From positions 1-49,526 of the forward strand of contig QKGI01000032.1 of assembly GCA_003250475.1 (NCBI GenBank): DNA of 49,526 nucleotides, in the 5' to 3' direction. The notes beneath the pieces were generated by a model, which did not search any database, was not told the DNA's origin, and was given only the letters and a program-made list of their open reading frames with translations. Shown here piece after piece: positions 4,795-17,737 of the stretch (position 1 is its first letter; each line of letters begins with the position of its first letter). This DNA comes from Bacteroidota bacterium (GTDB lineage: Bacteria > Bacteroidota > Bacteroidia > Bacteroidales > VadinHA17). The translations under genes and the position numbers were made by a program.

Positions 4795-6858
4795 CTATTT
4801 GAGGTAGGTGTCGAGAAACTCAAAGAACTCTTTCTGCCATATCACGGCGTTCTGTGGTTTGGTGACCCAGTGATACTCATTCTCGAAGAAGAGCAGCCTG
4901 CTGGGTACTCCAAGCAGCTGTGCCGAATTGAACGCTTCGAGACTCTGGCTGTAGGGTATGCGGAAGTCGTTGGCGCCTGTGATGATAAGTATTGGGGTGT
5001 CCCACTTATCTACCAGCGTATTAGGTGAGAACTGGTTATATCCGGGAGGCTGGGGCTTGTCCCAGGGAGCTCCCTGGTAATCTTTGTTCGGGTACCAGTA
5101 CTCCTCGGTGGAGCCGTACTCAGCAACGGTATTATAGACTCCGCAGTGTGATATGAAAGCCTTGAAACGTTTCTCATGTATACCAGCCAGGTAGAAGACC
5201 GAGTATCCCCCATAGCTGGCTCCCACGGCACCGAGACGATCCTTGTCAACGAACGGCTCTTTGGCCATGGCATCGATAGCATCAAGATAGTCCTGCATAT
5301 TCTTGCCGCCATAATCGCCTGATATCTGCTCACGCCACTCGCTGCCGAAGCCTGAGTTGCCGCGACGGTTGACCGCCACCACGATATAACCGTTGGCAGC
5401 CATTATCTGGTAATTCCACCTGTAACTCCATCCCTGACCGAGAGATCCCTGGGGACCGCCCTTGCAGTATAGCAGGGCAGGGTATTTCTTTGCCGGATCA
5501 AAATCGGGCGGATATATTATCCATGACTGAAGATCCTTGCCATCCCTGGTCCTGGTGTACCTCTCCTCTGTCTTCCCCATCTTTATGCTCTCATAGATAT
5601 GGCCGTTAACGTCAGTGATCATGTTGAATTCGCCCGTTGCCATGTCAACACTTGCCACCTCGGTGGGTCTTGCCATAGACATCATTCCGGCAACAAGCAC
5701 CCCGTTCCTCAGTTGCAGCGATCCCATATCATAGTTACCATGGGTGACGCTTGTGATACTGCCGGAGGCAAGAGATATGTTGAATACCGGCTGTGTGCCA
5801 CGGTACGGACTGGTGAACCAGATAGCTTCATTGCCGTTCCACTGCATGGTCTGAACATCATAGTCCCAGCCTTCGGATAACCATTTCCGCTCGCCGGTAG
5901 TCATGTCATAAACGAACAGCCTTTCGAGATCCGACTCATAACCGGCTTCCTTCATGCTTGAATATGCAATCATAGATCCGTCGGGAGAAAAGAGAGGCAA
6001 CTTGTCATAACCAGGGTTACCCTCGGTAATGTTCTTCTCCTCACCTGTTGTAATATCGTAAAGGTAGATGTCGGTGTTGGTGCTCAGTGCATATGCCTTG
6101 CCGGTAAGCTTCTTGCATGCATATGCAATAAATTTTCCGTCAGGACTCCAGCAAATGTCAGCCTCGTCAAACCATGGTGAGTCGGGAGCATCATACCGCT
6201 GCCCCTCCATGATGTCTTTCTCATTGCTGATAGTCTTGCCGTCGAAGGAGGCCGTGAAGAGATGACTGTACGAATAATCGCTCCAGGTGTTCCAGTGCCT
6301 GTACATCAGGTCGTTGATGATACGTACTCTTGCATTGGGAAGGCCATACTTCTCATTGGCTGTCTGATCCATCTTTACACGGCGGGTGAAGTAAACCATA
6401 TCCCCTGCAGGCGAAAAGGATAGTATCTCGAAGTCCTGCAGCCCGGTAATCTCCTTCTTGTCACTGCCGTCGGGCTTCATCGTCATTACTTTGCTGCCGG
6501 CGATGTAGGCTATTTTCTCCCCGTTTTCTATCCATTGTGGTCCGTAGCCGCCGGCATCAGTAAGCTGAGTCGCTGTTCCTCCAGCTGAAGGTATGGAGTA
6601 GATATTCGTTGTCCGGGCTTCAGTCGCCAGGTCATAGTAGGTAACAGTGTAAAGAACAGTGGCTCCGTCGGGCGAGAGAACAATCGAACCTATGCGGCCG
6701 TATTTCCAGAGAATCTCAGGAGTAAGTATACCGCCGGCTTTTTCAGCTTCTGTCAGTGAAACATCTATTATCGTGCCGGTTTCTTTTCCTTTGTTGTCTG
6801 TACATCCGCTAAGTAATGCCATGGTGACGGCAAGGAAGAGGATAAGGTTTTTTTTCAT
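4795..6858 (-). CDS. Dipeptidyl-peptidase 5-like S9 serine peptidase, lipoprotein
   Basis: 687 residues, close in length to DPP5 of Porphyromonas. An N-terminal lipoprotein signal ends in LLSGC (Cys19). A seven-bladed beta-propeller region with several SPDG repeats spans about residues 50-420. The C-terminal alpha/beta-hydrolase domain holds the triad Ser548 (GASYGGYS), Asp631 (GANDFR) and His663 (EYHW). The family releases dipeptides from oligopeptides in the periplasm. It is transcribed divergently from the first AraC-TM-TPR gene. A fragment of a second copy survives at 9925-10046. Family assignment is firm; cleavage specificity is inferred. Confidence 0.9.
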   Translation of the reverse strand: MKKNLILFLAVTMALLSGCTDNKGKETGTIIDVSLTEAEKAGGILTPEILWKYGRIGSIVLSPDGATVLYTVTYYDLATEARTTNIYSIPSAGGTATQLTDAGGYGPQWIENGEKIAYIAGSKVMTMKPDGSDKKEITGLQDFEILSFSPAGDMVYFTRRVKMDQTANEKYGLPNARVRIINDLMYRHWNTWSDYSYSHLFTASFDGKTISNEKDIMEGQRYDAPDSPWFDEADICWSPDGKFIAYACKKLTGKAYALSTNTDIYLYDITTGEEKNITEGNPGYDKLPLFSPDGSMIAYSSMKEAGYESDLERLFVYDMTTGERKWLSEGWDYDVQTMQWNGNEAIWFTSPYRGTQPVFNISLASGSITSVTHGNYDMGSLQLRNGVLVAGMMSMARPTEVASVDMATGEFNMITDVNGHIYESIKMGKTEERYTRTRDGKDLQSWIIYPPDFDPAKKYPALLYCKGGPQGSLGQGWSYRWNYQIMAANGYIVVAVNRRGNSGFGSEWREQISGDYGGKNMQDYLDAIDAMAKEPFVDKDRLGAVGASYGGYSVFYLAGIHEKRFKAFISHCGVYNTVAEYGSTEEYWYPNKDYQGAPWDKPQPPGYNQFSPNTLVDKWDTPILIITGANDFRIPYSQSLEAFNSAQLLGVPSRLLFFENEYHWVTKPQNAVIWQKEFFEFLDTYLK

Positions 6859-6901
6859 GGTACTGGCTGTTTTGTTGGTAAATCAAAATAATCTTCAATC
6901 T

Positions 6902-6909
6902 CAAAAGTA
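6902..6909 (-). promoter_or_regulatory. Candidate -7 box of the DPP5-like gene
   Basis: On the minus strand this reads TACTTTTG, matching the Bacteroidota -7 consensus TAnnTTTG, 43 bases upstream of the peptidase start. No convincing -33 TTTG lies 19-21 bases further upstream, so confidence is limited. Confidence 0.4.
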
Positions 6910-7006
6910 AAAAAATAAAACCAGCGTTCAGCAGATATGGCTCATTGAAATTACGGCCTGATATGCCAGGGCAGGTACTAGACGGGGAGCCGGGACAGGA
7001 AGAGTT

Positions 7007-7037
7007 TTGCAGGTTAGGCAATAATTTAGTAAATTAC
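7007..7037 (+). promoter_or_regulatory. Candidate promoter of AraC-TM-TPR gene 1 (TTGC-19-TAAATTAC)
   Basis: TTGC at 7007-7010 and TAAATTAC at 7030-7037 are 19 bases apart. The same spacing occurs before the other two paralogues. The -7 box ends 19 bases before ATG 7056, close to the 20 and 21 bases in paralogues 2 and 3, which supports that start. Confidence 0.45.
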
Positions 7038-7055
7038 ACATTGAAAATGATCACA

Positions 7056-9044
7056 ATGAATACCCTTCGTTCAGGAGATCAAATTTTTCTGGAAAAACTG
7101 ACAAAGCTGGTCGTAGCCAACCTCTCTCGTGAGGATTTTGATGTAAGGGAACTTGCCAGTGGAGCAGGCATGAGCAGGTCTTCGGTTCATCGGAGGCTCC
7201 GGCAACTTAGGAACCAGAATGCCAGTCAGTTTATACGTGAGATCAGGCTGCAGAAAGCGATGGAGATGCTTGAGGATGGTTCAGGCACTGCCTCTGAGAT
7301 TGCATACAAAGTCGGATTTGGAAGTCCTGCCTATTTTACAAAATGTTTTCATGAATATTATGGATTTCCGCCAGGTGAAGCCAGAAAGAGAGCCAATAAT
7401 GAAGAGGCCGGTAATTCCGGTACCAACAGAAAGGAGGATCATGGTAGTCAGGCAGGTCGACCTGTAACGGAGATTACCAGAGCACATGAAAGAACCGGGA
7501 TACGGCGAAAGCCGGTGATAGCAGTAGCGCTTATTACTGCCCTTGCAGTTTTTGTATCTGCTATGATGTTGTCTCATGTTTTTTCAAGCAAATCAAAGAA
7601 GCAATCGATAGTGGTACTTCCCTTCAGGAACCTCAGCAATAATCCTGACAACCAGTACTTCGCTGACGGGATTATGGAAGATATACTGAACAATCTTTGT
7701 CATATAAGTGATCTGAGAGTCATCTCCAGGACCACATCAGAGCATTTCCGTGAGACCGACCTGACGTCAGGGGATATAGCGCAGGCAGTTGGTGTACGTA
7801 ATGTTCTGGAAGGAAGCATAAGACGTGAGGGGAACAGGATCAGACTAAGTGTTCAGCTTATTGATGCTGTTCATGATCAGCACCTCTGGGCACAGAATTA
7901 TGACAGGGATATAACTGATCTTCTTGATGTACAGGGGGATATAGCTATGCAAATAGCAAACCGGCTAAGGACGGTGATTACTGATAGTGAAGCCAGGCTG
8001 CTAAAGGAAACACCTACTGCCAGTCCTGAAGCTTATGACAATTACCTGAGAGCCCGCTTCCTGCTGCACAAGGCAAACAGTAACCAGCGCTTTGATATAA
8101 GCAGGGAGGGTCTGCTGTCAAGCCTCAAATACTACGAAGAGGCAATAGCCATTGATACGGACTTTTCAAAAGCATATGCCGGGCTTGCCAACGCCTGGTA
8201 CAATTTATGTGCATGGGGGTGGTATAAACCTTATATGGATGGCATTGAGCAAGCAAGGCATTATTGTGCCCTTGCAATTGATAAAGATCCAGACTGTGCA
8301 GAGGCTCATGCAGTGAACGGCGCGTTACTGATATATCCTGACCACAGATTTGAAGAAGCCGGGAAGGAGCTTCAGATATCAATAGATCTTGATCCCGGTT
8401 TCTCCACGGCACACCAGTGGTACGCACAGCTTCTGATGATAACCGGGCCTATCCGGGAGGCAAGAAAACAGGTTGATATTGCTGTTGAACTGGAACCCTA
8501 TTTCTGGGTGGTTCAAAACCTTAATTCATGGATATATTACTTCGAAGAAAAATACGTTGAGGGCCTGGAAGCGTGCAAAACTGCCCGCGACCTGAATCCG
8601 GCTTCCACTGATAATATCTGGCTGTTTATTCTGCACTATGCAAAACTGGGAGAGGCAGAGAAAGTTGCTGAAGAACTGAAAGGTATCTTCAGATTATTTC
8701 CTGATGGGGATCAGTATGCAGGAGAGGTAATGGATGTCTGCACAGGAGGAGGAGTGGAAGGTATATTCAATTGGCTTGTCAGGGTTAATAAGACCAAGCC
8801 CCTTCCGATTGAAGGGTTGAACGGTCATCCATTTTATATTGCATGGTGGTATGCTATTACCGGTGACAGGGAACAGTCCGTCTCCTGGCTGGAAAAGACT
8901 CTTGACGAAAAGAAAATACCGCTTCATTACTTTAACCTTATCACCACCAACCCTGATTTTGATATACTTCGTAATGACCCGCGCTTTAAAGCCGTTCTTG
9001 AAAAGGCAGGTCTTGGGGCATATGATATCAGACCTTCCCGCTGA
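7056..9044 (+). CDS. Transmembrane AraC-type regulator with FlgO/TolB-like and TPR domains, paralogue 1
   Basis: 662 residues from ATG 7056. An in-frame extension back to 6945 would run through the promoter, so I reject it; ATG 7047 is an alternative. An AraC-type DNA-binding domain occupies about residues 12-112, with the second helix-turn-helix FGSPAYFTKCFHEYYGFPPGE. One membrane helix follows at about 153-175. Next is a FlgO/TolB-like domain opening IVVLPFRNLS with YFADGI and VLEGS, and then tetratricopeptide repeats to the end. The order suggests a ToxR/CadC-like one-component regulator: DNA binding inside, sensing outside. The divergent peptidase gene is a possible target, but this is inference. 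Confidence 0.85.
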   Translation: MNTLRSGDQIFLEKLTKLVVANLSREDFDVRELASGAGMSRSSVHRRLRQLRNQNASQFIREIRLQKAMEMLEDGSGTASEIAYKVGFGSPAYFTKCFHEYYGFPPGEARKRANNEEAGNSGTNRKEDHGSQAGRPVTEITRAHERTGIRRKPVIAVALITALAVFVSAMMLSHVFSSKSKKQSIVVLPFRNLSNNPDNQYFADGIMEDILNNLCHISDLRVISRTTSEHFRETDLTSGDIAQAVGVRNVLEGSIRREGNRIRLSVQLIDAVHDQHLWAQNYDRDITDLLDVQGDIAMQIANRLRTVITDSEARLLKETPTASPEAYDNYLRARFLLHKANSNQRFDISREGLLSSLKYYEEAIAIDTDFSKAYAGLANAWYNLCAWGWYKPYMDGIEQARHYCALAIDKDPDCAEAHAVNGALLIYPDHRFEEAGKELQISIDLDPGFSTAHQWYAQLLMITGPIREARKQVDIAVELEPYFWVVQNLNSWIYYFEEKYVEGLEACKTARDLNPASTDNIWLFILHYAKLGEAEKVAEELKGIFRLFPDGDQYAGEVMDVCTGGGVEGIFNWLVRVNKTKPLPIEGLNGHPFYIAWWYAITGDREQSVSWLEKTLDEKKIPLHYFNLITTNPDFDILRNDPRFKAVLEKAGLGAYDIRPSR

Positions 9045-9084
9045 AATGCAACATATTTTAAAACCTTGGCACAGGTTTTAAAAG

Positions 9085-9120
9085 AAAGGAGCCCTGTATT
9101 ATAGCCTTTCTGGCTTCTTT
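9085..9120 (+). terminator. Possible terminator after paralogue 1
   Basis: AAAGGAGCC (9085-9093) can pair with GGCTTCTTT (9112-9120) with one G-T wobble, leaving an 18-base loop. The right arm ends in TTT. It is weak but correctly placed 40 bases after the stop. The rest of 9045-9445 holds no gene that I can see. Confidence 0.35.
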
Positions 9121-9445
9121 ATCTCAACTTAGACCTGGTATTATTGACCAGTGAAGCACATAGAAAAGACAGATCAGAGACATTAGTTTCCCTGTTGTCC
9201 TGGTGGGGCTTTTGTGTGTGCAGTGTTTATGGATTAGAGCTGTTTACCTGAATGCAATGCCGGGTCTCACGACTCCGCATGCAAACATTAATATCCTGAT
9301 CATGAGGGATGAAATATTTTCCTGATCCTGTAATATGTCTCAGTCCGTGGTGACAAAAAAATTAAACCGCCGGTTGTGACAATTTACGATGCCAGGTGAA
9401 CATCCCGGGAATGCATATGAGTTTAACCCATTAAACTAAAGACAT

Positions 9446-9868
9446 ATGAAAACAAAAGTAATTTTAATCACGGTTTGCTTGCTGTTGGGCATGGCCGTAA
9501 GTACGGTATCAGGTCAGACGAATGACACCCGGTCAGTGCAGTACACAGATGTACTTGCTTATTATACACCTGTTTACTGCGGAGATGAAATGGTCGATTA
9601 CATAACCGGAGACGCCAGGTTTCATATCATTGACCATTATAAAGATGGCGTATGGCAATGGGAGATTGCCCAGGTCAAAGGTGAAGTCACCGGTTATTTC
9701 GGAGAGGTATTTAAAATGCAGGAAGTTGATAAGTACTGGATTCCTGAATTCGGAATCCTTATCTGGCACTATAACCTTATTGGCAACTGGGGACATCACT
9801 ATATAGGTTTTCTGACCTATAGCTATATCACCGGTGAGATGACGGTCGGCAGAACAGTGTGCCACTAA
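9446..9868 (+). CDS. Small secreted protein of unknown function
   Basis: 140 residues with a clear Sec signal peptide (MKTKVILITVCLLLGMAVSTVSGQ, cleavage near residue 23-24). The mature part is about 117 residues, rich in Tyr, Trp and Gly, with alternating hydrophobic stretches suggesting a small beta-fold. It has two cysteines, one near the C-terminal end (VCH). I recognise no family. It stands alone between paralogues 1 and 2. The coding reading is supported by the signal peptide and a short clean frame. Confidence 0.6.
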   Translation: MKTKVILITVCLLLGMAVSTVSGQTNDTRSVQYTDVLAYYTPVYCGDEMVDYITGDARFHIIDHYKDGVWQWEIAQVKGEVTGYFGEVFKMQEVDKYWIPEFGILIWHYNLIGNWGHHYIGFLTYSYITGEMTVGRTVCH

Positions 9869-9924
9869 TTTTTGCTGATCAGATATTACCGGCCGGCCTG
9901 GGAGTAAGAGAGATATACCAGCCA

Positions 9925-10046
9925 CAGGTGTTCCAGTGCCTGTAAATCAGGTCGTTGATGATATGTGCCTTCGCATTGAGAAGGCCATATCTCTTATTTG
10001 TCGTCTGATCCATTCTGACACGGCGGGTGTAGTAAACCATATCATC
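9925..10046 (-). pseudogene. Fragment of a second DPP5-like peptidase gene
   Basis: On the minus strand this stretch encodes DDMVYYTRRVRMDQTTNKRYGL and then a NDLIYRHWNT segment. It aligns with residues about 152-191 of the intact peptidase (DNA 6285-6405) at high DNA identity. Homology stops abruptly on both sides, with no signal peptide, propeller remainder or catalytic domain. It lies 246 bases upstream of paralogue 2 and points away from it, as the intact gene does with paralogue 1. This fits a duplicated divergent pair whose peptidase copy was lost. The remainder of 9869-10291 holds no gene that I can identify. Confidence 0.75.
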
Positions 10047-10241
10047 TGATGGTTCTGTAAAGTGTTCCGGCCGGACTCGTAGGACCGGGCAACCGCTATT
10101 ATGTAAGCCTGGCTGATGAGATACCGGTTGCCTTTCAGAGGTTTGATTCAACGGTTGTCTGTTTTTAGGTTATTGGGAATAAGGCAGGAAGCGAAGAGCG
10201 GGTTTCACTTCATCTATTTGCTCGGGGAGTCAAAGGAGGTA

Positions 10242-10272
10242 TTGACTTCCCGCGCAGAATTTCCTAAATTCA
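10242..10272 (+). promoter_or_regulatory. Candidate promoter of AraC-TM-TPR gene 2 (TTGA-19-TAAATTCA)
   Basis: TTGA at 10242-10245 and TAAATTCA at 10265-10272 are 19 bases apart. An ATTTAGTAAAT segment just before the start codon is also found just upstream of the start of paralogue 1. Confidence 0.45.
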
Positions 10273-10291
10273 CATATTTAGTAAATCAAGG

Positions 10292-12265
10292 ATGACCGAT
10301 TACCTTTCATCGGATCAACAATTTATCAGAAAGCTCACAGCAATAGTTGAGGCGAACCTGTCAGAAAAGGAATTTGACTGTGAAGAACTTGCCCGGGAAG
10401 CTCACATGAGCCGGACGGCGATTCACAGGAAACTGAGGGGTCAGGGAATTCGCAATACAAGTAAGTTCATAAGGGAGATCCGGCTCCGGAAAGCAAGGGA
10501 GATGCTTCAGGAAGGCTCGATGACCTCGTCTGAGGTGGCATACAAAGTGGGTTTCGGCAGTCCTGAATACTTCTCGAAATGTTTTCATGAATTTTTCGGA
10601 TATCCTCCGGGGGAGGTGAAAAAGAGGTTTATAATCGCGGAGATGGAGAGCATCGGGACATCTTTGCAGGGGGTTGATCCCGGTGGAAGATCGACTGCAG
10701 GTATATGGAGCTGGCGCAATACTTTTATAGCTCTCTCTTTAATTATTGTAATAGCTGTTGTTTTTGTTATCCTGGGCCATAACGTTCCTCTATTCAGGTC
10801 TAAGGATCTCTCAATAGTTGTTATGCCGTTCAAGAACCTGAGTGATAATCCTGAGAACCAGTATTTAGCTGATGGCATAACGGAAGACATCCTGAATAAT
10901 CTTTGCCATATCAGTGATTTGAGGGTCATATCCCGCTCTACTTCCGAGCACTTCAGGGGTACTGACCTGACGACCAGGGAAATAGCAAGGCAGACAGATG
11001 CCCGTAATGTTTTGGAGGGAAGTGTCAGGCAGGATGGGGAACTTTTACGGATAAGCATTCAGCTTATTGATGCTCAGCGTGATCAATACCTGTGGTCTGA
11101 GAGTTTTGACAGGAAACTGACAAATCTGCTGGGAATCCAGGGTGACATAGCCCTTCGTGTAGCTAATAAGCTCAATGCTGTGATTACCGAAAGTGAGGTT
11201 ATGCAAATAAGAGATGTACTCACCTTAAATCCGGATGCATATGATTCATATATAAGGGGCCGTTTCCTCCTTCACAGGTCTGTCAATGACCAGCGGACAG
11301 ACATTGACAAGGAAGGTCTTGTTGGCAGCATCCGGTACTTTGAAAATGCTGTTGCCTCTGACCCCGGGTTCGTTGAAGCCTACGCAGGTCTCGCCCAGGC
11401 ATGGTTCGACCTGTCAGCGTACGGATGGTTACCTTTAAGGGATGGCTTTCCAAAAGCACGGGATTACAGTCTGAAAGCTCTGGAGATTGATAATGATTGT
11501 GCAGAGGCCCATACTGTCCTTGGCGCCTACCATGGCTGGGGCGATCGTAATTTTGAGGAAGCCAGGTCAGAACTGAAAATGGCTCTGAAGCTAAAACCTG
11601 ATTATCCTGTCGCAAACCAGTATTATGCACAGGTGCTTATGATTATCGGTCCTCTTGAGGAGACCCGTATATTTCTTGACCGTGCACTGCAGCTTGAGCC
11701 ACACTTCTGGATCCTCCATAACCTTAATGCCTATGTCTATTACTTTGAAGGCAAACATACAGAGGCAATTAAAGCATGTAAGATTGCGAGAGATCTTCAT
11801 GAGGGCTATCCCCCCAATGACTGGCTTTTCTATCTCAATTATGCAAAGCTCGGGGAGGGAGAGAAAGCAACTGAAGCCCTCCAGGGAATTGTAAGCAAAT
11901 ATTCCGATAGGGGAGCTTCCTTCGATAATATAATTGCAGATGCTTACCGCAATTCAGGTATAAAAGGACTGTTTACCTGGATGATAGAAACCAACATAAA
12001 TTCACCATTGCCTGTTTTCGGACTGAACGGGGGTCCGTTCAATATTTCATGGTGGTATGCTATCCTTGGTGATAAGGAAAAATCGATTTACTGGCTTGAG
12101 AAGAATATGAAACAGAAACTGAAAGGGCACTTCTTCCTTGACCTGGTAGTCTCAAATCCTGATTTTGATATTCTGCGTGATGATGTACGTTTTAAGGCAG
12201 TCGTCGAAGAATTGGGACTTACTCCATATAACAACAGACCGCCGGTCTTGACACAATCGCACTGA
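10292..12265 (+). CDS. Transmembrane AraC-type regulator with FlgO/TolB-like and TPR domains, paralogue 2
   Basis: 657 residues, the closest relative of paralogue 1 in this window. The AraC-type domain (about 10-110) ends FGSPEYFSKCFHEFFGYPPGE. A single membrane helix spans about 144-162. IVVMPFKNLSDNPENQYLADGI opens the FlgO/TolB-like domain near residue 175. TPR repeats follow, and the end (NPDFDILRDDVRFKAVVEELGL) is almost the same as in paralogue 1. Predicted role: membrane-bound transcription regulator with an outward TPR sensor. The next gene is a PutP-type symporter with its own -7 box. The fragment of a peptidase gene upstream suggests the original partner was lost. Confidence 0.85.
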   Translation: MTDYLSSDQQFIRKLTAIVEANLSEKEFDCEELAREAHMSRTAIHRKLRGQGIRNTSKFIREIRLRKAREMLQEGSMTSSEVAYKVGFGSPEYFSKCFHEFFGYPPGEVKKRFIIAEMESIGTSLQGVDPGGRSTAGIWSWRNTFIALSLIIVIAVVFVILGHNVPLFRSKDLSIVVMPFKNLSDNPENQYLADGITEDILNNLCHISDLRVISRSTSEHFRGTDLTTREIARQTDARNVLEGSVRQDGELLRISIQLIDAQRDQYLWSESFDRKLTNLLGIQGDIALRVANKLNAVITESEVMQIRDVLTLNPDAYDSYIRGRFLLHRSVNDQRTDIDKEGLVGSIRYFENAVASDPGFVEAYAGLAQAWFDLSAYGWLPLRDGFPKARDYSLKALEIDNDCAEAHTVLGAYHGWGDRNFEEARSELKMALKLKPDYPVANQYYAQVLMIIGPLEETRIFLDRALQLEPHFWILHNLNAYVYYFEGKHTEAIKACKIARDLHEGYPPNDWLFYLNYAKLGEGEKATEALQGIVSKYSDRGASFDNIIADAYRNSGIKGLFTWMIETNINSPLPVFGLNGGPFNISWWYAILGDKEKSIYWLEKNMKQKLKGHFFLDLVVSNPDFDILRDDVRFKAVVEELGLTPYNNRPPVLTQSH

Positions 12266-12306
12266 TCCGTTGCCGGCCTTCAATTTTCATTTATTTATGA
12301 TATTTT

Positions 12307-12314
12307 TATATTTG
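12307..12314 (+). promoter_or_regulatory. Candidate -7 box of the PutP-type symporter
   Basis: TATATTTG matches TAnnTTTG and lies 63 bases before the symporter start. The -33 position 19 bases upstream holds only TTTT, a weak match. Confidence 0.4.
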
Positions 12315-12376
12315 AAATGAAATCAGGTTTTACCTGTGTCCTGACAATGACAGATTCACCTATATAAGGCTGTGCC

Positions 12377-13819
12377 ATGTTAATTACTGTTTTTATCGTA
12401 TATCTCTTCGTCCTCGTAGGAATAGTGCTTTATGCATCAAGAAAGTCAAAAACAAATGCTGATTTTGTCCTGGGAGGGAAGAAAATTCCCGGGTTATTCC
12501 TTGCTCTATCTGAAAGAGCAACAGGGGAATCCGCCTGGCTCCTGCTGGGGTTGACAGGCTTTGCCTACAGTGAAGGATGGGATGCAATTTGGGTAGCTTT
12601 CGGGTGCGTTGCCGGCATCCTTTTCCTCTGGATCTTCATGGCAGAGCCATTAAGGAGAGTGACAGAGAAAACCGGTGCACTGACTGTATCCGGCCTCTTC
12701 TTCAAGTCTTTCCCCGGCTCGGAAAGAAAGATCGGGATACTCTCTTCAGTGATCATCATCATTTTCTTTGTGTTGTACCTCTCCGCCCAGTTCAGCGGTG
12801 CCGGTAAGATATTCAATGACACCTTTCATATCGAACCTTTCTGGGGGATGGTGATAGGTGCCGGCATTGTTACCCTGTACTCGATGCTCGGAGGCTTTAT
12901 CACTGTAGTTGCTGTTGATGCTTTCCAGGCTGTCCTGATGATAATCACATGCGTGGTATTACCCATCGTTGCCCTTTTTATTGCTGCCGCAAACGGTGTA
13001 GGGTTTGCAGAGGCCCTGATGCATTCTGACATGGCGCTGACTGAGGTATCCGCGACCATGGCCGGGGGAGCGGGATTTCTTCTTGTGTTAAATGGTCTTA
13101 GCTGGGCTTTTGGCTATACCGGGCAGCCACAGCTCCTGAACAGGATGATGGCGATGCGCAACCCTGCAGCCACACGAAGAGCCAGGGTGGTAGCGATCAC
13201 GTGGACTATCCTTGCCTATACCGGAGCATTTCTGATTGGAATAATTGGATACAGGATGGTGATGTCTGGGATGATGGGTGATGGTGCCGCTGCCATAGCT
13301 GCTGATGCAGAAAAAGTGATGCCCGTCATGGTGATGACCCTTCTGAACCCGCTGCTGGCCGGTATCCTTCTCTCAGGTGCAGTATCAGCCATGATGTCCA
13401 CTGCCTCTTCACAGCTGATAGTTGTTTCATCATCAATTACCGAAGATATATGGACTAACCTACGGAGAAGACCATTATCCGAAAAGAGGCTTTTGTTTCT
13501 CAATAAGTTCCTGACGCTTATGGTTGGTGTGGTGGCTTTTCTGCTTGTACTGGTGATGGAAGACACAGTCTATGGTCTTGTATCATATGCGTGGAGCGGT
13601 ATAGGTGCCTCTTTCGGACCGGCAGTGGTCCTCCTGCTTTTCTGGAAGCGCTTTTCCAGGGCCGGAGTCTATGCCTCGCTTATCACAGGGACCCTGTCGG
13701 CAATAATATGGAAGACATTGCTGGCTGACCCGACAGGTATATCAGAAAGACTTGCAAGCTACCTGCTGGCATTTGTGGCAGCAATTACGTTTAGTCTTCT
13801 TTTTCCTGAAAAAAAATAA
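12377..13819 (+). CDS. putP: Sodium/solute symporter, PutP (SSS) family
   Basis: 480 residues, entirely membrane-spanning, with about 12-13 hydrophobic segments. Family marks include the N-terminal FVLGGKKIPG, the GYTGQPQLLNRMMAMRN segment typical of sodium/proline symporters, and SGAVSAMMSTASSQL, the region containing the sodium-site serines. The likely substrate is proline, but related amino acids cannot be excluded. Placed between two peptide- or envelope-sensing regulators and near a dipeptidyl peptidase, it could import products of peptide breakdown; that link is inference. Confidence 0.85.
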   Translation: MLITVFIVYLFVLVGIVLYASRKSKTNADFVLGGKKIPGLFLALSERATGESAWLLLGLTGFAYSEGWDAIWVAFGCVAGILFLWIFMAEPLRRVTEKTGALTVSGLFFKSFPGSERKIGILSSVIIIIFFVLYLSAQFSGAGKIFNDTFHIEPFWGMVIGAGIVTLYSMLGGFITVVAVDAFQAVLMIITCVVLPIVALFIAAANGVGFAEALMHSDMALTEVSATMAGGAGFLLVLNGLSWAFGYTGQPQLLNRMMAMRNPAATRRARVVAITWTILAYTGAFLIGIIGYRMVMSGMMGDGAAAIAADAEKVMPVMVMTLLNPLLAGILLSGAVSAMMSTASSQLIVVSSSITEDIWTNLRRRPLSEKRLLFLNKFLTLMVGVVAFLLVLVMEDTVYGLVSYAWSGIGASFGPAVVLLLFWKRFSRAGVYASLITGTLSAIIWKTLLADPTGISERLASYLLAFVAAITFSLLFPEKK

Positions 13820-13923
13820 CTGACACTCTTCACGACATTATTTAGATCAAAGCTGATAATGATCTTACAATGTAAGACAGGCACCTTAGCATATATTTTT
13901 TTAAACCATTATGTTTCTGATTA

Positions 13924-13954
13924 TTGACTCTTGTTTCAAAATAGAGTAATTTTA
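13924..13954 (+). promoter_or_regulatory. Candidate promoter of AraC-TM-TPR gene 3 (TTGA-19-TAATTTTA)
   Basis: TTGA at 13924-13927 and TAATTTTA at 13947-13954 have the same 19-base spacing as the other two paralogues. The -7 box ends 21 bases before ATG 13975. Confidence 0.45.
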
Positions 13955-13974
13955 ACTTCTGATGAAAGCATGCC

Positions 13975-15933
13975 ATGCAGGGAGCACTTTCAATGGATCA
14001 GGCATTTATTGAAAGGCTGACTGACATTATCCTGTCTAATCTGGAAAATGAGCAGTTCGGAGTGCAGGAGCTATCCCGTGAGATGGGCATGAGCCACAGC
14101 ACCATCCATCGCAGGCTGAGATCCTATACACACCTCTCTGTAAGCCAGTTTATCCGTGAGGTCAGGTTGCAAAAGGCATATGAGATGCTCAGCCAAAACC
14201 TTGGCAGTGTCTCGGAGATCTCTTACAGGGTAGGATTTGGAAGTCCGTCCTATTTTAACAAGTGTTTCCATGAGTATTACGGGTACCCCCCTGGAGAGGC
14301 CAGGAATCCCGAATCGCGCCTTCATAAGTCAAACGTTGAGATGCCTGATCTGCTTCATCCGGCAGGCACGGGATTCTGGCACAACAAGGCTGGCAATAAG
14401 GGTATGCGGAAAATCAAAAGATACCTTATCATTCCCTTTGGGATACTTGGAGGCCTGTTACTGGCATGGGTCCTCTACATTGTGATTGCCGGCAGAAATA
14501 ATGCTGAACCTGATAAGGAGAGTATCAAGGAAGAAAAATCAATTGTTGTCCTTCCCTTTAAAAACCTCAGTTCAGATACAGATAATGAATACTTTGCAGA
14601 TGGTGTGACGATAGATATCCGCGACCGGCTTTCCAGGATCAAAGGCCTGAAGGTGATATCGAGCATAACTGCAGAGCATTTCAGGGGCAGCACACTTACA
14701 ATCCCTGAATTAGCTGACGAAATAGGTGTAAATTATGTTCTTGAAGGCAGTGCTCGTAAAGATGGAAGCATGACAAGGGTTTCGGCAAAGCTCATTGATG
14801 CAAAACGTGACCGGCAGCTATTCTCCGAAACGTTTGACAGGGAGTTGAGTGATATCTTCAGTATTCAGAGCGAGATAGCACAGGTTGTTGCAGGCAAACT
14901 CGAGGCGGTGTTGTCTGCTGAAGAGGTTGAACAGATTGAGAAAGTGCCGACACAGAGCACGGAAGCACATATCTATTACCTGAAGGGCAGGTATTGCTGG
15001 AACACCAGGACACAAGAGAGCCTCAACAGGAGCATCGGGTATTTTGAAAAGAGCTTAGCGGCAGATCCCGGTTATGCAGCAGCCTATGCAGGATTGGCGG
15101 AGACATATTATACCCTTTCACATAATGACTGGATGCCGGTAGACAAAGGATTTGGAAGAGCAAAAGAGCTGGCGCAAAAAGCCCTGGAGATTGATCCCGG
15201 TCTTGCCGAGGCTCATACTACATTAGGAGCGGTTTATGCCATGGGAGAATGGCAATGGGATAAAGCCCGGGAAGAGTATCAGATAGCTGTCGGACTGAAC
15301 CCTGGTTATTCGACTGCTTATCTGTATTATGGCGAACTGCTTGATCTGCTGGGAGAAAATGAAGAAGCCAGGCTTCAGCTGAATATTGCAAAAGAGCTTG
15401 ATCCCTTCTCCCCGGTCATCAACTGTTTTAATATGACCTTGTATTATAATCAGGGTAAGTTTCATGAGGCCCTGGATGCATGGAATGAATACAATGAATT
15501 GAACCTTGCTTACTTTAATCCATATGCCTATTATTTCTACATCTATATGTACCTGGGTGAAGATTCCCTGGCTCTGCAGGCAATAAAGACTTTAATAAAA
15601 ACAAACCAGGAAGGACTGGAATTCAACGAATCACTGCTGCAGTTGTATGATCAGCATGGCGCCATGGGAATACTCGAATGGTTTAACACTGAGGACTCGG
15701 TATTAACAGAACCGAGGCAATTTTTCTACTACGGGAAAAGACTTGCCATTCTGGGGAGGAAGAGTGAAGCACTCGACCTGCTCGAAAAAGCCTTCCAGGC
15801 AAGGTTCGTTTTTATACCATGTATCTATAATAACTATGATTTCAGAAACCTGCGAAACGAACCCAGGTTCAGGACCATGCTGAGACAAATGAATTTCCCG
15901 GCATACAAATCAGGGAACACGGGGTCAGGCTGA
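13975..15933 (+). CDS. Transmembrane AraC-type regulator with FlgO/TolB-like and TPR domains, paralogue 3
   Basis: 652 residues with the same order as paralogues 1 and 2 but more diverged. The AraC-type domain is at about 10-110 (FGSPSYFNKCFHEYYGYPPGE), the membrane helix at about 150-172, the IVVLPFKNLSSDTDNEYFADGV block near 190, then TPR repeats. The C-terminus differs from the other two and ends in a basic, Gly-rich tail. ATG 13975 was chosen by promoter spacing; ATG 13993 is possible. It follows putP by 155 bases with its own promoter. Conservation is highest in the DNA-binding part, so the three may share operators while sensing different signals. This is inference. Confidence 0.85.
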   Translation: MQGALSMDQAFIERLTDIILSNLENEQFGVQELSREMGMSHSTIHRRLRSYTHLSVSQFIREVRLQKAYEMLSQNLGSVSEISYRVGFGSPSYFNKCFHEYYGYPPGEARNPESRLHKSNVEMPDLLHPAGTGFWHNKAGNKGMRKIKRYLIIPFGILGGLLLAWVLYIVIAGRNNAEPDKESIKEEKSIVVLPFKNLSSDTDNEYFADGVTIDIRDRLSRIKGLKVISSITAEHFRGSTLTIPELADEIGVNYVLEGSARKDGSMTRVSAKLIDAKRDRQLFSETFDRELSDIFSIQSEIAQVVAGKLEAVLSAEEVEQIEKVPTQSTEAHIYYLKGRYCWNTRTQESLNRSIGYFEKSLAADPGYAAAYAGLAETYYTLSHNDWMPVDKGFGRAKELAQKALEIDPGLAEAHTTLGAVYAMGEWQWDKAREEYQIAVGLNPGYSTAYLYYGELLDLLGENEEARLQLNIAKELDPFSPVINCFNMTLYYNQGKFHEALDAWNEYNELNLAYFNPYAYYFYIYMYLGEDSLALQAIKTLIKTNQEGLEFNESLLQLYDQHGAMGILEWFNTEDSVLTEPRQFFYYGKRLAILGRKSEALDLLEKAFQARFVFIPCIYNNYDFRNLRNEPRFRTMLRQMNFPAYKSGNTGSG

Positions 15934-16008
15934 GACCCCTGTTTGAGAGCCAAATAATACAACTTTTCAAAAAATTATAAGTTTCCGCAAAATAATTGCA
16001 TAAGCTGT

Positions 16009-16029
16009 CCGAAAATTTAAACTTTTCGG
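16009..16029. other. Short perfect hairpin CCGAAAA/TTTTCGG
   Basis: Seven-base arms at 16009-16015 and 16023-16029 lie between paralogue 3 and a lipoprotein gene. No T-run of note follows on the plus strand. It could be a weak terminator for paralogue 3 or an operator. Confidence 0.3.
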
Positions 16030-16121
16030 TCTCCTGCTTCTATGCACTGCCTCGCCTCTTTCATGACCTTTGATATGACAAAGTTAAAGTAGTCTTTGAT
16101 CAGTAACTAAAGCCGAGGATC

Positions 16122-16679
16122 ATGAAAGCATTAATCTTTATTATGTTGATTACACTCTTGTGTGTACTGACTGGTTGTCCTGGAGGACCTGATCCGCTTC
16201 CAGTGGTTCAGGTTGATACCATTACATTCTCAATTGAATCAAAGTTTATGACCTCCTTCACAACCGGTATCATCGAAAAAGGAGGTGACACAGAACTGAA
16301 AAGTCCGGTTTGTCAGCTGGAGCAGGTGGGGTCCGGAGCAGACGCCGAACTGGGTGCGTTCGATATTTACCTTAGCTGTTGCTGGAGCCTGGCCGATGGA
16401 TCGCATAGCTGTACCGAAGGATATATTAAAGATTCTGACGGAGATATCCTCACTTTCAAGTGTATGGACAGCACAAATGGCATGGTATTCACGTCTGACT
16501 TTCCATTTGATCAGACCTATCTATGCTCGGCGTTCGAGTTTACCGGTGGCACCGGGAGATTTACAGGTGCATCAGGCAACGGGCTTATGCAATGCGATGT
16601 AAAAGGTGCCTCAAGTTCTATGCAACATAACTGGGAGGCAACAATGACACTGGTTATAATTTCTTATTTGTGCGATTGA
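16122..16679 (+). CDS. Lipoprotein of unknown function with a GGTGRFTGASG motif
   Basis: 185 residues with a lipoprotein signal (LLCVLTGC, Cys19). The mature part has about eight further cysteines, suggesting disulfides in the periplasm or at the cell surface. The segment FEFTGGTGRFTGASGNG resembles a motif seen in secreted beta-barrel proteins with an allene-oxide-cyclase-like fold, but I cannot assign a family with confidence. It stands alone and is followed by a bidirectional terminator shared with recA. The start is fixed by the signal sequence. Confidence 0.65.
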   Translation: MKALIFIMLITLLCVLTGCPGGPDPLPVVQVDTITFSIESKFMTSFTTGIIEKGGDTELKSPVCQLEQVGSGADAELGAFDIYLSCCWSLADGSHSCTEGYIKDSDGDILTFKCMDSTNGMVFTSDFPFDQTYLCSAFEFTGGTGRFTGASGNGLMQCDVKGASSSMQHNWEATMTLVIISYLCD

Positions 16680-16726: not shown

Positions 16727-17737
16727 TTATTTTTCCTTTTCCTTCAGAAACTCTGAGATCTTTGTCCTTATCTCGTCTGTCAGTTCAGGATTATCTTCAA
16801 GTAGTTTCTTGACGGCATCGCGGCCCTGGGCCAGCCTGGTGTCGCCGTAGGAGAACCATGAGCCGCTCTTCTTGATGATATTGAACTCTGTTCCCAGGTC
16901 AATGATCTCACCTGTTCGCGAGATCCCTTCACCAAAGAGAATGTCAAACTCAGCCTTACGGAACGGAGGGGCAAGCTTGTTCTTCACCACCTTGACCTTA
17001 ACACGGTTACCCACAGCATCTTCACCGTCCTTGATCTGGCTTGTACGTCTTATGTCAAGCCTGATGGAGGCATAGAACTTCAGGGCATTTCCTCCGGTGG
17101 TGGTTTCGGGGTTGCCGAACATGACACCTATCTTCTCTCTCAGCTGGTTGATGAATATACAGGTGGTGTTGGTCTTGTTTATATTGGCCGTCAGCTTGCG
17201 CAGTGCCTGTGACATCAGCCTGGCCTGGAGACCCATCTTTGAATCTCCCATCTCACCCTCGATCTCCGCCTTTGGGGTAAGTGCCGCCACGGAATCGATC
17301 ACAATTATATCGATGGCTCCTGACCTGATAAGATGATCGGCGATCTCAAGCGCCTGCTCACCGTTGTCAGGCTGCGAAATGAGGAGATTCTCCACGTCCA
17401 CGCCAAGCTTCGAGGCATAGAACCTGTCAAAGGCATGCTCGGCATCAATTATGGCAGCAATACCGCCTGCCTTCTGGGCTTCGGCAATGGCATGAATGGC
17501 AAGTGTTGTCTTTCCTGATGATTCAGGACCGTAGATCTCTACCACCCTGCCTCGCGGCAGTCCTCCTATGCCTAATGCAGCATCGAGACCTATTGATCCC
17601 GTAGATATCACCTGGACATTCTCTATTGCGTGATCGCCCAGTTTCATGATGGTGCCACGGCCAAAATCCTTTTCGATCTTGCCAAGTGTAACCTCAAGCG
17701 CCTTGAGCTTCTCCTTGTTGACTTCTTTTCTTTCCAT
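16727..17737 (-). CDS. recA: Recombinase RecA
   Basis: 336 residues, full length for Bacteroidota RecA. Walker A GPESSGKT is at residues 70-77, Walker [11 protein letters not shown] later, then loop regions [23 protein letters not shown] and [22 protein letters not shown]. It forms filaments on single-stranded DNA for homologous recombination and triggers LexA cleavage where LexA exists. No SOS-box-like operator stands out upstream. It lies 19 bases downstream of bcp on the same strand, so the two are probably co-transcribed. Confidence 0.98.

Follow-up and report, generated by a model that had tools for sequence, protein, structure and literature searches.

CadC of Escherichia coli (PDB 3ly7-3lya) joins a DNA-binding head at its N-terminus, through a single membrane helix, to a periplasmic sensor made of an alpha/beta part plus TPR repeats. 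Here we describe three genes, p1, p2 and p3, on contig QKGI01000032.1 of a Bacteroidota bacterium (assembly GCA_003250475.1), which was analysed over its whole length of 49,526 nucleotides (the window). As modelled, their products share the order of CadC; they differ in that the head is of the AraC type (HTH_18) rather than a winged helix, about 150 residues are added at the C-terminus, identity is 14-15% and the type of target is not shared. We consider it highly probable that p1-p3 are membrane-bound one-component regulators and that such regulators, here p1 and p3, act on an adjacent gene for an exported protein through a shared operator; binding, activation and the signal are inferred. The architecture, the CadC fold in the model, the operator and its position, and the export signals of the neighbours were computed directly.

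That regulators bound to the membrane form a class with heads of many kinds is known (Demey et al. 2023, PMC10269533), and p1-p3 have in common with the transmembrane transcription regulators in the available part of that survey a DNA-binding domain and a membrane segment in one protein. The survey is general; in the available part of its main text the terms 'TPR', 'HTH' and 'AraC' do not occur, and no operator or linked exported gene is described there. In VtrA/VtrC and ToxR/ToxS, as set out in the available part of Kinch et al. 2022 (PMC9214523), a membrane regulator also stands beside a gene for an exported partner, and one partner family here likewise models as a small barrel. In contrast, our regulators have an AraC head, a TPR sensor and partners from several families; unlike VtrC, the partner gene neither overlaps the regulator gene nor is cotranslated with it, but either follows at a long distance with a promoter of its own or is divergent (12 loci). 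The string 'Bacteroid' is absent from the text of that source as available.

Hybrid two-component systems of Bacteroides (histidine kinase, receiver and AraC parts; HK-REC-AraC) are also membrane-bound with an AraC-type output. The closest solved chain to the head by sequence, 12aw, is from such a protein, and an HK-REC-AraC gene adjoins these genes in relatives, but p1-p3 have neither a kinase nor a receiver domain. The combination of a CadC sensor that bears an AraC head with a conserved operator ahead of a neighbouring gene for an exported protein appears to be new, as it was not found in the literature searched, in which subscription journals were thinly covered.

Domain architecture of the three regulators

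Intact open reading frames (ORFs), all on the + strand, encode p1 (7056-9044, 662 aa), p2 (10292-12265, 657 aa) and p3 (13975-15933, 652 aa); p1 has alternative starts at 7047 and 6945, and its open frame reaches back to the TTG at 6945 to give 699 aa. Each protein begins with an HTH_18 AraC domain (7152-7391, Pfam E 1e-19, in p1; 10388-10627, 1.7e-18, in p2; 14071-14307, 1.6e-20, in p3), which scores 67-74 bits against a gathering score of 33.6 and has the double helix-turn-helix of AraC/XylS proteins. A membrane helix follows at 7515-7571 (residues 154-172), 10721-10777 (residues 144-162; 141-163 in the model) and 14431-14487 (residues 153-171), respectively, then a TolB-like domain at 7587-8000, 10793-11206 and 14521-14934 (the first and third by a family hidden Markov model), and then TPR repeats, for which Pfam models match each protein. 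Hence the ORFs, the Pfam search and hydropathy bear out the claim of an earlier note on this DNA, that three proteins of 652-662 residues share the order AraC domain, membrane helix, TolB-like domain and TPR repeats.

Pfam found no histidine kinase (HATPase, HisKA) or receiver domain in p1-p3, so a DNA-binding domain and a membrane segment occur in one chain free of phosphorelay domains, as in one-component transmembrane regulators. The heads matched HTH_18 and HTH_AraC, and the winged helix Trans_reg_C was not among the Pfam matches at E of at most 0.01. No NCBIfam equivalog reached its cut-off for p1-p3 among the matches listed. In the window protein tested, the TolB-like domain fell below the Pfam cut-off (TolB_N E 0.016, FlgO 0.063); by profile, FlgO matched 23/40 family members (best 1.9e-5), TolB_N 16/40 and CadC_C1 4/40, which places the middle domain in the FlgO / TolB_N / LpoB / CsgG / CadC_C1 group. 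The label 'FlgO/TolB-like', used in the same note, thus holds at the level of the superfamily. As was also noted there, the heads are alike and the TPR parts diverge more: pairwise identity is 53-61% in the heads, 37-51% in the TPR parts and 24-48% in the C-terminal 140 residues. The host genome (3.47 Mb, 97.8% complete) holds only these three proteins of the kind.

Predicted operator repeats and the exported neighbours

AraC/XylS regulators typically use direct repeats that lie close to the promoter and are spaced by about two helical turns. Beside regulators of the p1-p3 family we found tandem TGCAnCAnAATTgAAAg repeats with a period of 20-21 bp, followed at a constant spacing by a Bacteroidota -7 box. 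Self-comparison of 39 non-redundant gaps after regulators gave direct repeats at lags 20, 21 and 41 (Z 7.6, 6.5 and 5.0), with Z from -2.1 to 1.9 at all other lags; 184 background same-strand gaps gave Z of 0.8, 4.4 and 0.2 at these three lags. Mean z at lags 20/21 was 1.21/1.05 in the regulator gaps vs 0.06/0.32 in the background (Mann-Whitney 6e-9). These lags and the fixed -7 offset match the spacing of AraC/XylS direct repeats, and binding is predicted. The 300 bp upstream of the regulators had a weaker signal at lags 20 and 21 (Z 4.1 and 3.5), part of which may be explained by divergent operators.

The loci were collected by a scan with two peptide patterns of which the best 80 were kept, which favours relatives of the window, and the seed for one separate operator matrix was chosen by eye; the clean tests are a split by taxon and newly sampled loci. 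A tandem weight matrix derived, with no seed given, from 28 gaps that belong neither to Flavobacteria nor to the window scored 10/10 Flavobacterial gaps at p of at most 0.05 and 9/10 at 0.01; in reverse, a matrix from the 10 Flavobacterial gaps scored 18/28 of the others. As a control, the 28-gap matrix reached p of at most 0.05 in 18/184 background gaps, and in 3/32 of those in Flavobacterial loci. Within the 49.5-kb window, a matrix from 38 non-window gaps found exactly two sites of at least 13 bits on the two strands together (shuffles 0.1), and both (9047-9084 and 15986-16023) fall in the gap after a regulator. The predicted operator after p1 (9047-9084, + strand) has two units with a 20-bp period and 17.8 bits by the matrix trained without the window; that between p3 and a lipoprotein gene (15963-16023, + strand) has three units of about 21 bp and 14.5 bits. 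The earlier suggestion that related heads use similar DNA sites is supported by this shared predicted operator.

The -7 box of Bacteroidota has the consensus TAnnTTTG, as given in the available part of PMC7366714. At operator-linked promoters the box is mostly GAACTTTG/A and lies at +38, counted from where the last repeat unit starts, or at +59 when one unit is too weak for calling. Anchored in this way, a box with at least 5/6 matches was present in 16/34 loci vs 5.2 ± 2.1 in shuffles (maximum 13 in 300), whereas without a positional anchor TAnnTTTG was not enriched (7/42 gaps, shuffles 8.1). Operator sites from non-window loci, 22 in all, align without gaps over 78 columns. After the p3 operator, the box GACCTTTG (16065-16072, + strand, 5/6 matches) stands at the family's fixed distance and 57 bases before the ATG of the lipoprotein gene; after the p1 operator there is a weak and doubtful -7-like box, CAACTTAG (9125-9132, + strand, 4/6 matches).

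The operator points to exported neighbours. With a crude ORF caller (minimum 80-90 aa) and a home-made signal-peptide rule, the same-strand downstream ORF had a signal peptide for 37/52 regulators vs 196/872 background pairs in the same loci (Fisher 8.5e-13), and a lipobox for 25/52 vs 78/872 (Fisher 3.9e-12). The gap between regulator and neighbour has a median of 228 nt vs 43 in the background and is at least 100 nt in 40/45, which would fit a separate promoter for the neighbour. At p of at most 0.01, the operator was found for 42/52 regulators with a testable flank: before 33/44 downstream and 9/25 divergent neighbours. It points to the regulator itself in 3/54. It precedes 40/50 neighbours with a signal peptide and 2/19 without. 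Autoregulation through the same operator was therefore rejected, and no operator was found before p1, p2 or p3 (p 0.88, 0.95 and 0.69).

The matrix of this flank test was refitted without the locus under test, but it started from one to which all non-window gaps had contributed; hence new regulators were sought. A profile search of 394 Bacteroidota genomes gave 79 with matches and the head plus TolB part in one protein in at least about 21; of the 21 regulators of this independent sample, 20 are new, and L249 was left out for its possible overlap with training locus L082. The same-strand downstream gene was exported in only 8/21, and a universal rule of a downstream exported gene was therefore rejected and replaced by an adjacent one, downstream or divergent. 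The operator was found in 15/20. An orthologous group (L248, L250-L260) had it in 12/12 towards the divergent gene, at 15-34 bits and each at the floor p of 0.005; these divergent genes encode mostly lipoproteins of about 190-200 residues, and no operator points back. Three other loci had it downstream (L261 and L263, p 0.002; L262, p 0.014).

On this basis we propose that an envelope signal would change the periplasmic TolB-like and TPR sensor, that the membrane-held AraC heads would bind the tandem 20-21-bp direct repeats just upstream of a Bacteroidota housekeeping promoter, and that the bound heads would activate the adjacent gene for a small exported protein, usually a lipoprotein. We infer that the regulators bind these repeats in response to such a signal and that they activate rather than repress, which would fit the place of the operator next to the polymerase site. 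In the window, p1 would drive a 140-aa exported protein (9446-9868, + strand; signal peptide-like N-terminus, homologues in L037, L039 and L054), p3 would drive a 185-aa lipoprotein with a lipobox (16122-16679, + strand), and p2 may read the other operators, or the same operator before a lipoprotein gene that is unlinked. The 140-aa and 185-aa proteins, neither of which the earlier note named, are thus likely targets as judged from the DNA. Regulators with an adjacent lipoprotein gene of this kind also occur in culturable relatives, among them Draconibacterium aestuarii, Marinifilum fragile and Aestuariivivens marinum. Across the phylum Bacteroidota switches of this AraC-CadC kind are predicted to control an adjacent exported-protein gene.

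Several results weigh against this reading. The p1 operator lies 361 bases before the start of its proposed target and its -7 box is poor, and p2 has no linked operator. Ten of the 184 background gaps scored at p of at most 0.01, six of them before exported genes, mostly lipoproteins in regulator loci. The loci share a common descent, and among the 15 independent positives there are 12 orthologues that count as one conserved case. Moreover, the operator was not found for 5/20 independent regulators (L264-L268), and L265-L268 also lack a clear membrane segment; L264-L268, which have an AraC head and a TolB-like part, may be a separate, cytoplasmic branch.

A model built from sequence only and from 22 sites, R1, found in the window 15963-15999 (E 0.0028), 16004-16074 (E 0.0058) and, third, 9044-9072 (E 0.21). 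Its best match in the host genome (C31:5910-5968, E 1.9e-4) lies 52 bases before an unlinked gene for a 414-residue lipoprotein (G000:C31 5910-7264, L205), which has the family operator and a -7 box; one further weak match (C112) is inside a gene. The C31 gene is a likely trans target of one of p1-p3. Across the genus, nine non-training sites had E below 0.01: seven precede exported proteins, one is at a contig end and the ninth precedes a 440-aa protein without a signal; weaker sites (L209, L212-L214) look like chance. In relatives, further lipoprotein genes of the same locus have their own copy of the operator (L039 13561-15015 and 16983-17501; L035 14998-15519), and one regulator may serve several exported proteins.

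The 185-aa lipoprotein, which has the motif GGTGRFTGASG, forms an eight-stranded barrel in an AlphaFold2 model (predicted local distance difference test, pLDDT, 82.7). With VIA-align this model matched PloI4 cyclase (Z 12.2, root-mean-square deviation (rmsd) 4.0, 133 residues), dirigent protein (11.2) and allene oxide cyclase (9.3), so it shares a barrel fold with dirigent proteins, allene oxide cyclases and PloI4-type cyclases (Z 12.2 to 9); with Foldseek the template modelling (TM) score was only 0.4-0.6. It differs from them in being a bacterial lipoprotein, and the likeness is one of modelled fold: Pfam families are all below cut-off, the best being AOC_like (E 0.031 in 2/17 family members, with no match in the window protein). 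The dirigent-like lipoprotein is rare, occurring in 9/394 genomes of the phylum sample. As an exclusive partner it was rejected, as it adjoins an AraC-TM-TolB-TPR gene (TM here being the membrane helix) in one (L163) of 15 family stretches; other genes beside it are a hybrid kinase (L171), BTAD-TPR (L167) and, one ORF away, kinase-TolB-TPR (L160).

Barrels of the dirigent and allene oxide cyclase type bind small hydrophobic molecules in known cases. For this reason a co-component role like that in VtrA/VtrC (PMC9214523) was kept open, in which the exported protein, besides being the output, would form part of the sensor: its barrel would bind a small hydrophobic ligand and dock on the periplasmic part of the regulator as VtrC does on VtrA. 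We regard this as unlikely: the adjacency of regulator and exported gene is conserved and the model of the window lipoprotein has the fold of a ligand barrel, but the partners come from several unrelated families, the median gap of 228 nt with its own promoter takes the place of overlapping genes, many partners have a lipobox and could be sorted to the outer membrane, and the same lipoprotein family also stands beside other regulators or none. Its wider form, that AraC-CadC chimeras across the phylum are each dedicated, by way of one conserved operator, to a neighbouring exported protein or lipoprotein that is also their ligand-binding feedback partner, as an AraC-based co-component system evolved apart from ToxR/ToxS and VtrA/VtrC, is likewise unlikely.

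The repeats could also belong to another factor, such as a hybrid kinase with an AraC head, which the membrane regulators merely adjoin. In six relatives with the stretch (L035, L036, L037, L038, L039 and L042) an HK-REC-AraC gene, whose product has HATPase, HisKA, receiver and HTH_18 domains, lies between a dpp5-like peptidase gene and the regulator, and in L171 the dirigent-like lipoprotein gene is directly downstream of the hybrid kinase. We found no orthologue of this kinase in the window (6859-7055) or the host genome (best match 30% identity), and yet the operators are retained; among gene families present in at least 3 of the named loci, no hybrid kinase recurs within 4 kb of their 40 regulators, and operators track the regulator's side (42/52). 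Ownership of the repeats by another factor is thus quite improbable.

Predicted topology and sensor fold

Each of p1/p2/p3 has one clear membrane segment, with a 19-residue mean hydropathy of 2.70/3.05/2.37 and a next best value of 0.79-1.07. Exactly one segment at the threshold used was found in 58/59 unique regulators from the window, genus stretches and named loci. In the 57 regulators that have the segment in place, lysines and arginines average 4.67 over the 15 residues preceding the segment vs 2.11 after it, with an N-side excess in 49/57 and a deficit in 2/57. Since the DNA-binding head must be inside and the N-side is positive, the sensor would point outwards.

An AlphaFold2 model of p2, built with an alignment of 47 relatives, has a mean pLDDT of 90.6 and an isolated helix at 141-163 flanked by low-confidence linkers. 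With VIA-align the top matches are the periplasmic entries of CadC, which align over 297-303 residues at Z 21.3-21.5 and rmsd 4.0-4.5 and cover residues 166-501 of the model. The best of them has Z 21.5, 301/322 residues and rmsd 4.0, and a TPR protein follows these entries at Z 17.5. Foldseek also returned CadC periplasmic entries, among TPR superhelices (E 2.9e-6, TM by target 0.61). Hence, the part after the membrane appears to be a CadC-type sensor plus about 150 further residues, and the layout of p1-p3 is, by this model, ToxR/CadC-like with an AraC head in place of the winged helix. Both the ToxR/CadC-like layout and the outward C-terminal part had been proposed from the letters of this DNA; the first is supported by the fold and the single helix, and the second, that the sensor part faces the periplasm, stands as a prediction from charge bias and the CadC fold.

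Some proteins that lack a membrane helix also have TolB-TPR parts (for example L065, and in L045 a TIR protein), which counts against an outward sensor to the extent that the domain alone does not prove an outside location. HilA, which has TolB-like and TPR parts, is cytoplasmic. It is very improbable that the hydrophobic segment of p1-p3 is similarly buried in a wholly cytoplasmic protein: the HilA model NF009037 matches p3 (E 6.7e-19) and some relatives of the sensor domain lack a membrane segment, but the segment is kept in 58/59 with a positive N-side, it is modelled as an isolated helix between low-confidence linkers, and CadC's periplasmic part is the top match in the structure comparison.

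The TolB-TPR part is joined elsewhere to a caspase-like peptidase (C14; L059 2992-5196), to a protein kinase (L160 1979-4933) and to a BTAD transcription activator (L065 4439-6640). Arrays of TIR-like plus TolB-like/TPR genes, with a membrane segment mostly between the two parts, occur in same-genus genomes G014 and G021 (L045 442-2403, 4131-6269 and 6305-8371; L046 618-2741, 14441-16579 and 16597-18786; L047 72-2477, 13145-15616 and 15766-18198); the TIR match is weak in the single TIR-like protein tested (Pfam E 0.0089). From these fusions the TolB-TPR part appears to be a mobile sensor module with many heads.

Locus, lineages and significance

The locus lies between a dpp5-like S9 peptidase gene (4795-6858, - strand; NF053518 E 1.8e-257, below its cut-off) as conserved left boundary and, as conserved right boundary, a gene at 16727-17737 (- strand, 94-96% identity in relatives) that we take, from its sequence, to be recA-like. 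Same-genus relatives (G012, G021, G016 and G007, with shorter stretches from G014 and G010) vary in the cargo between dpp5 and recA, which comprises an HK-REC-AraC gene, one regulator, small lipoproteins, a beta-helix lipoprotein and a symporter, not all of them everywhere. The three membrane regulators of the window stand where relatives have the hybrid kinase-receiver-AraC gene.

That the regulators control dpp5 and the PutP-like sodium:solute symporter (12377-13819, + strand), as the earlier note had put forward, is most improbable: the genes are adjacent, and L036 and L039 also have the symporter in this locus, but neither promoter has an operator and dpp5 is a fixed syntenic boundary, kept in relatives beside other regulators. 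The whole-window scan found no operator in the gap between dpp5 and p1, and the gap before the symporter (12266-12376) gave p 0.17-0.39, or p 0.023 with a score below zero using the Flavobacteria-trained matrix.

In the family tree, p1 (7 rows, support 95/92) groups with the regulators that sister species have as single copies, p2 (100/100) with G012, and p3 (100/100) with two regulators that lie at other places in G014 and G008. Hence, the three neighbouring genes, earlier called an array, are indeed side by side, but they come from three lineages with separate relatives in sister species and are not the product of a recent tandem duplication. Between the p1 operator and the 140-aa gene, some 360 bases (9085-9445) hold no recognisable gene, and no tblastn match better than E 0.087 to remains of a lipoprotein gene was found in 9045-9446. 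A dirigent-like lipoprotein gene holds the equivalent place in G016 and G007, and it may have been lost from 9085-9445 in the window.

Membrane-bound regulators are common in Bacteroidota, their targets are known for few, and regulation is known for few exported lipoproteins. With a readable shared operator, targets of the AraC-CadC class would be predictable from sequence, with specific DNA sites. The natural joining of a CadC-type sensor to a different head would also offer a test case for how a membrane-held protein switches transcription.

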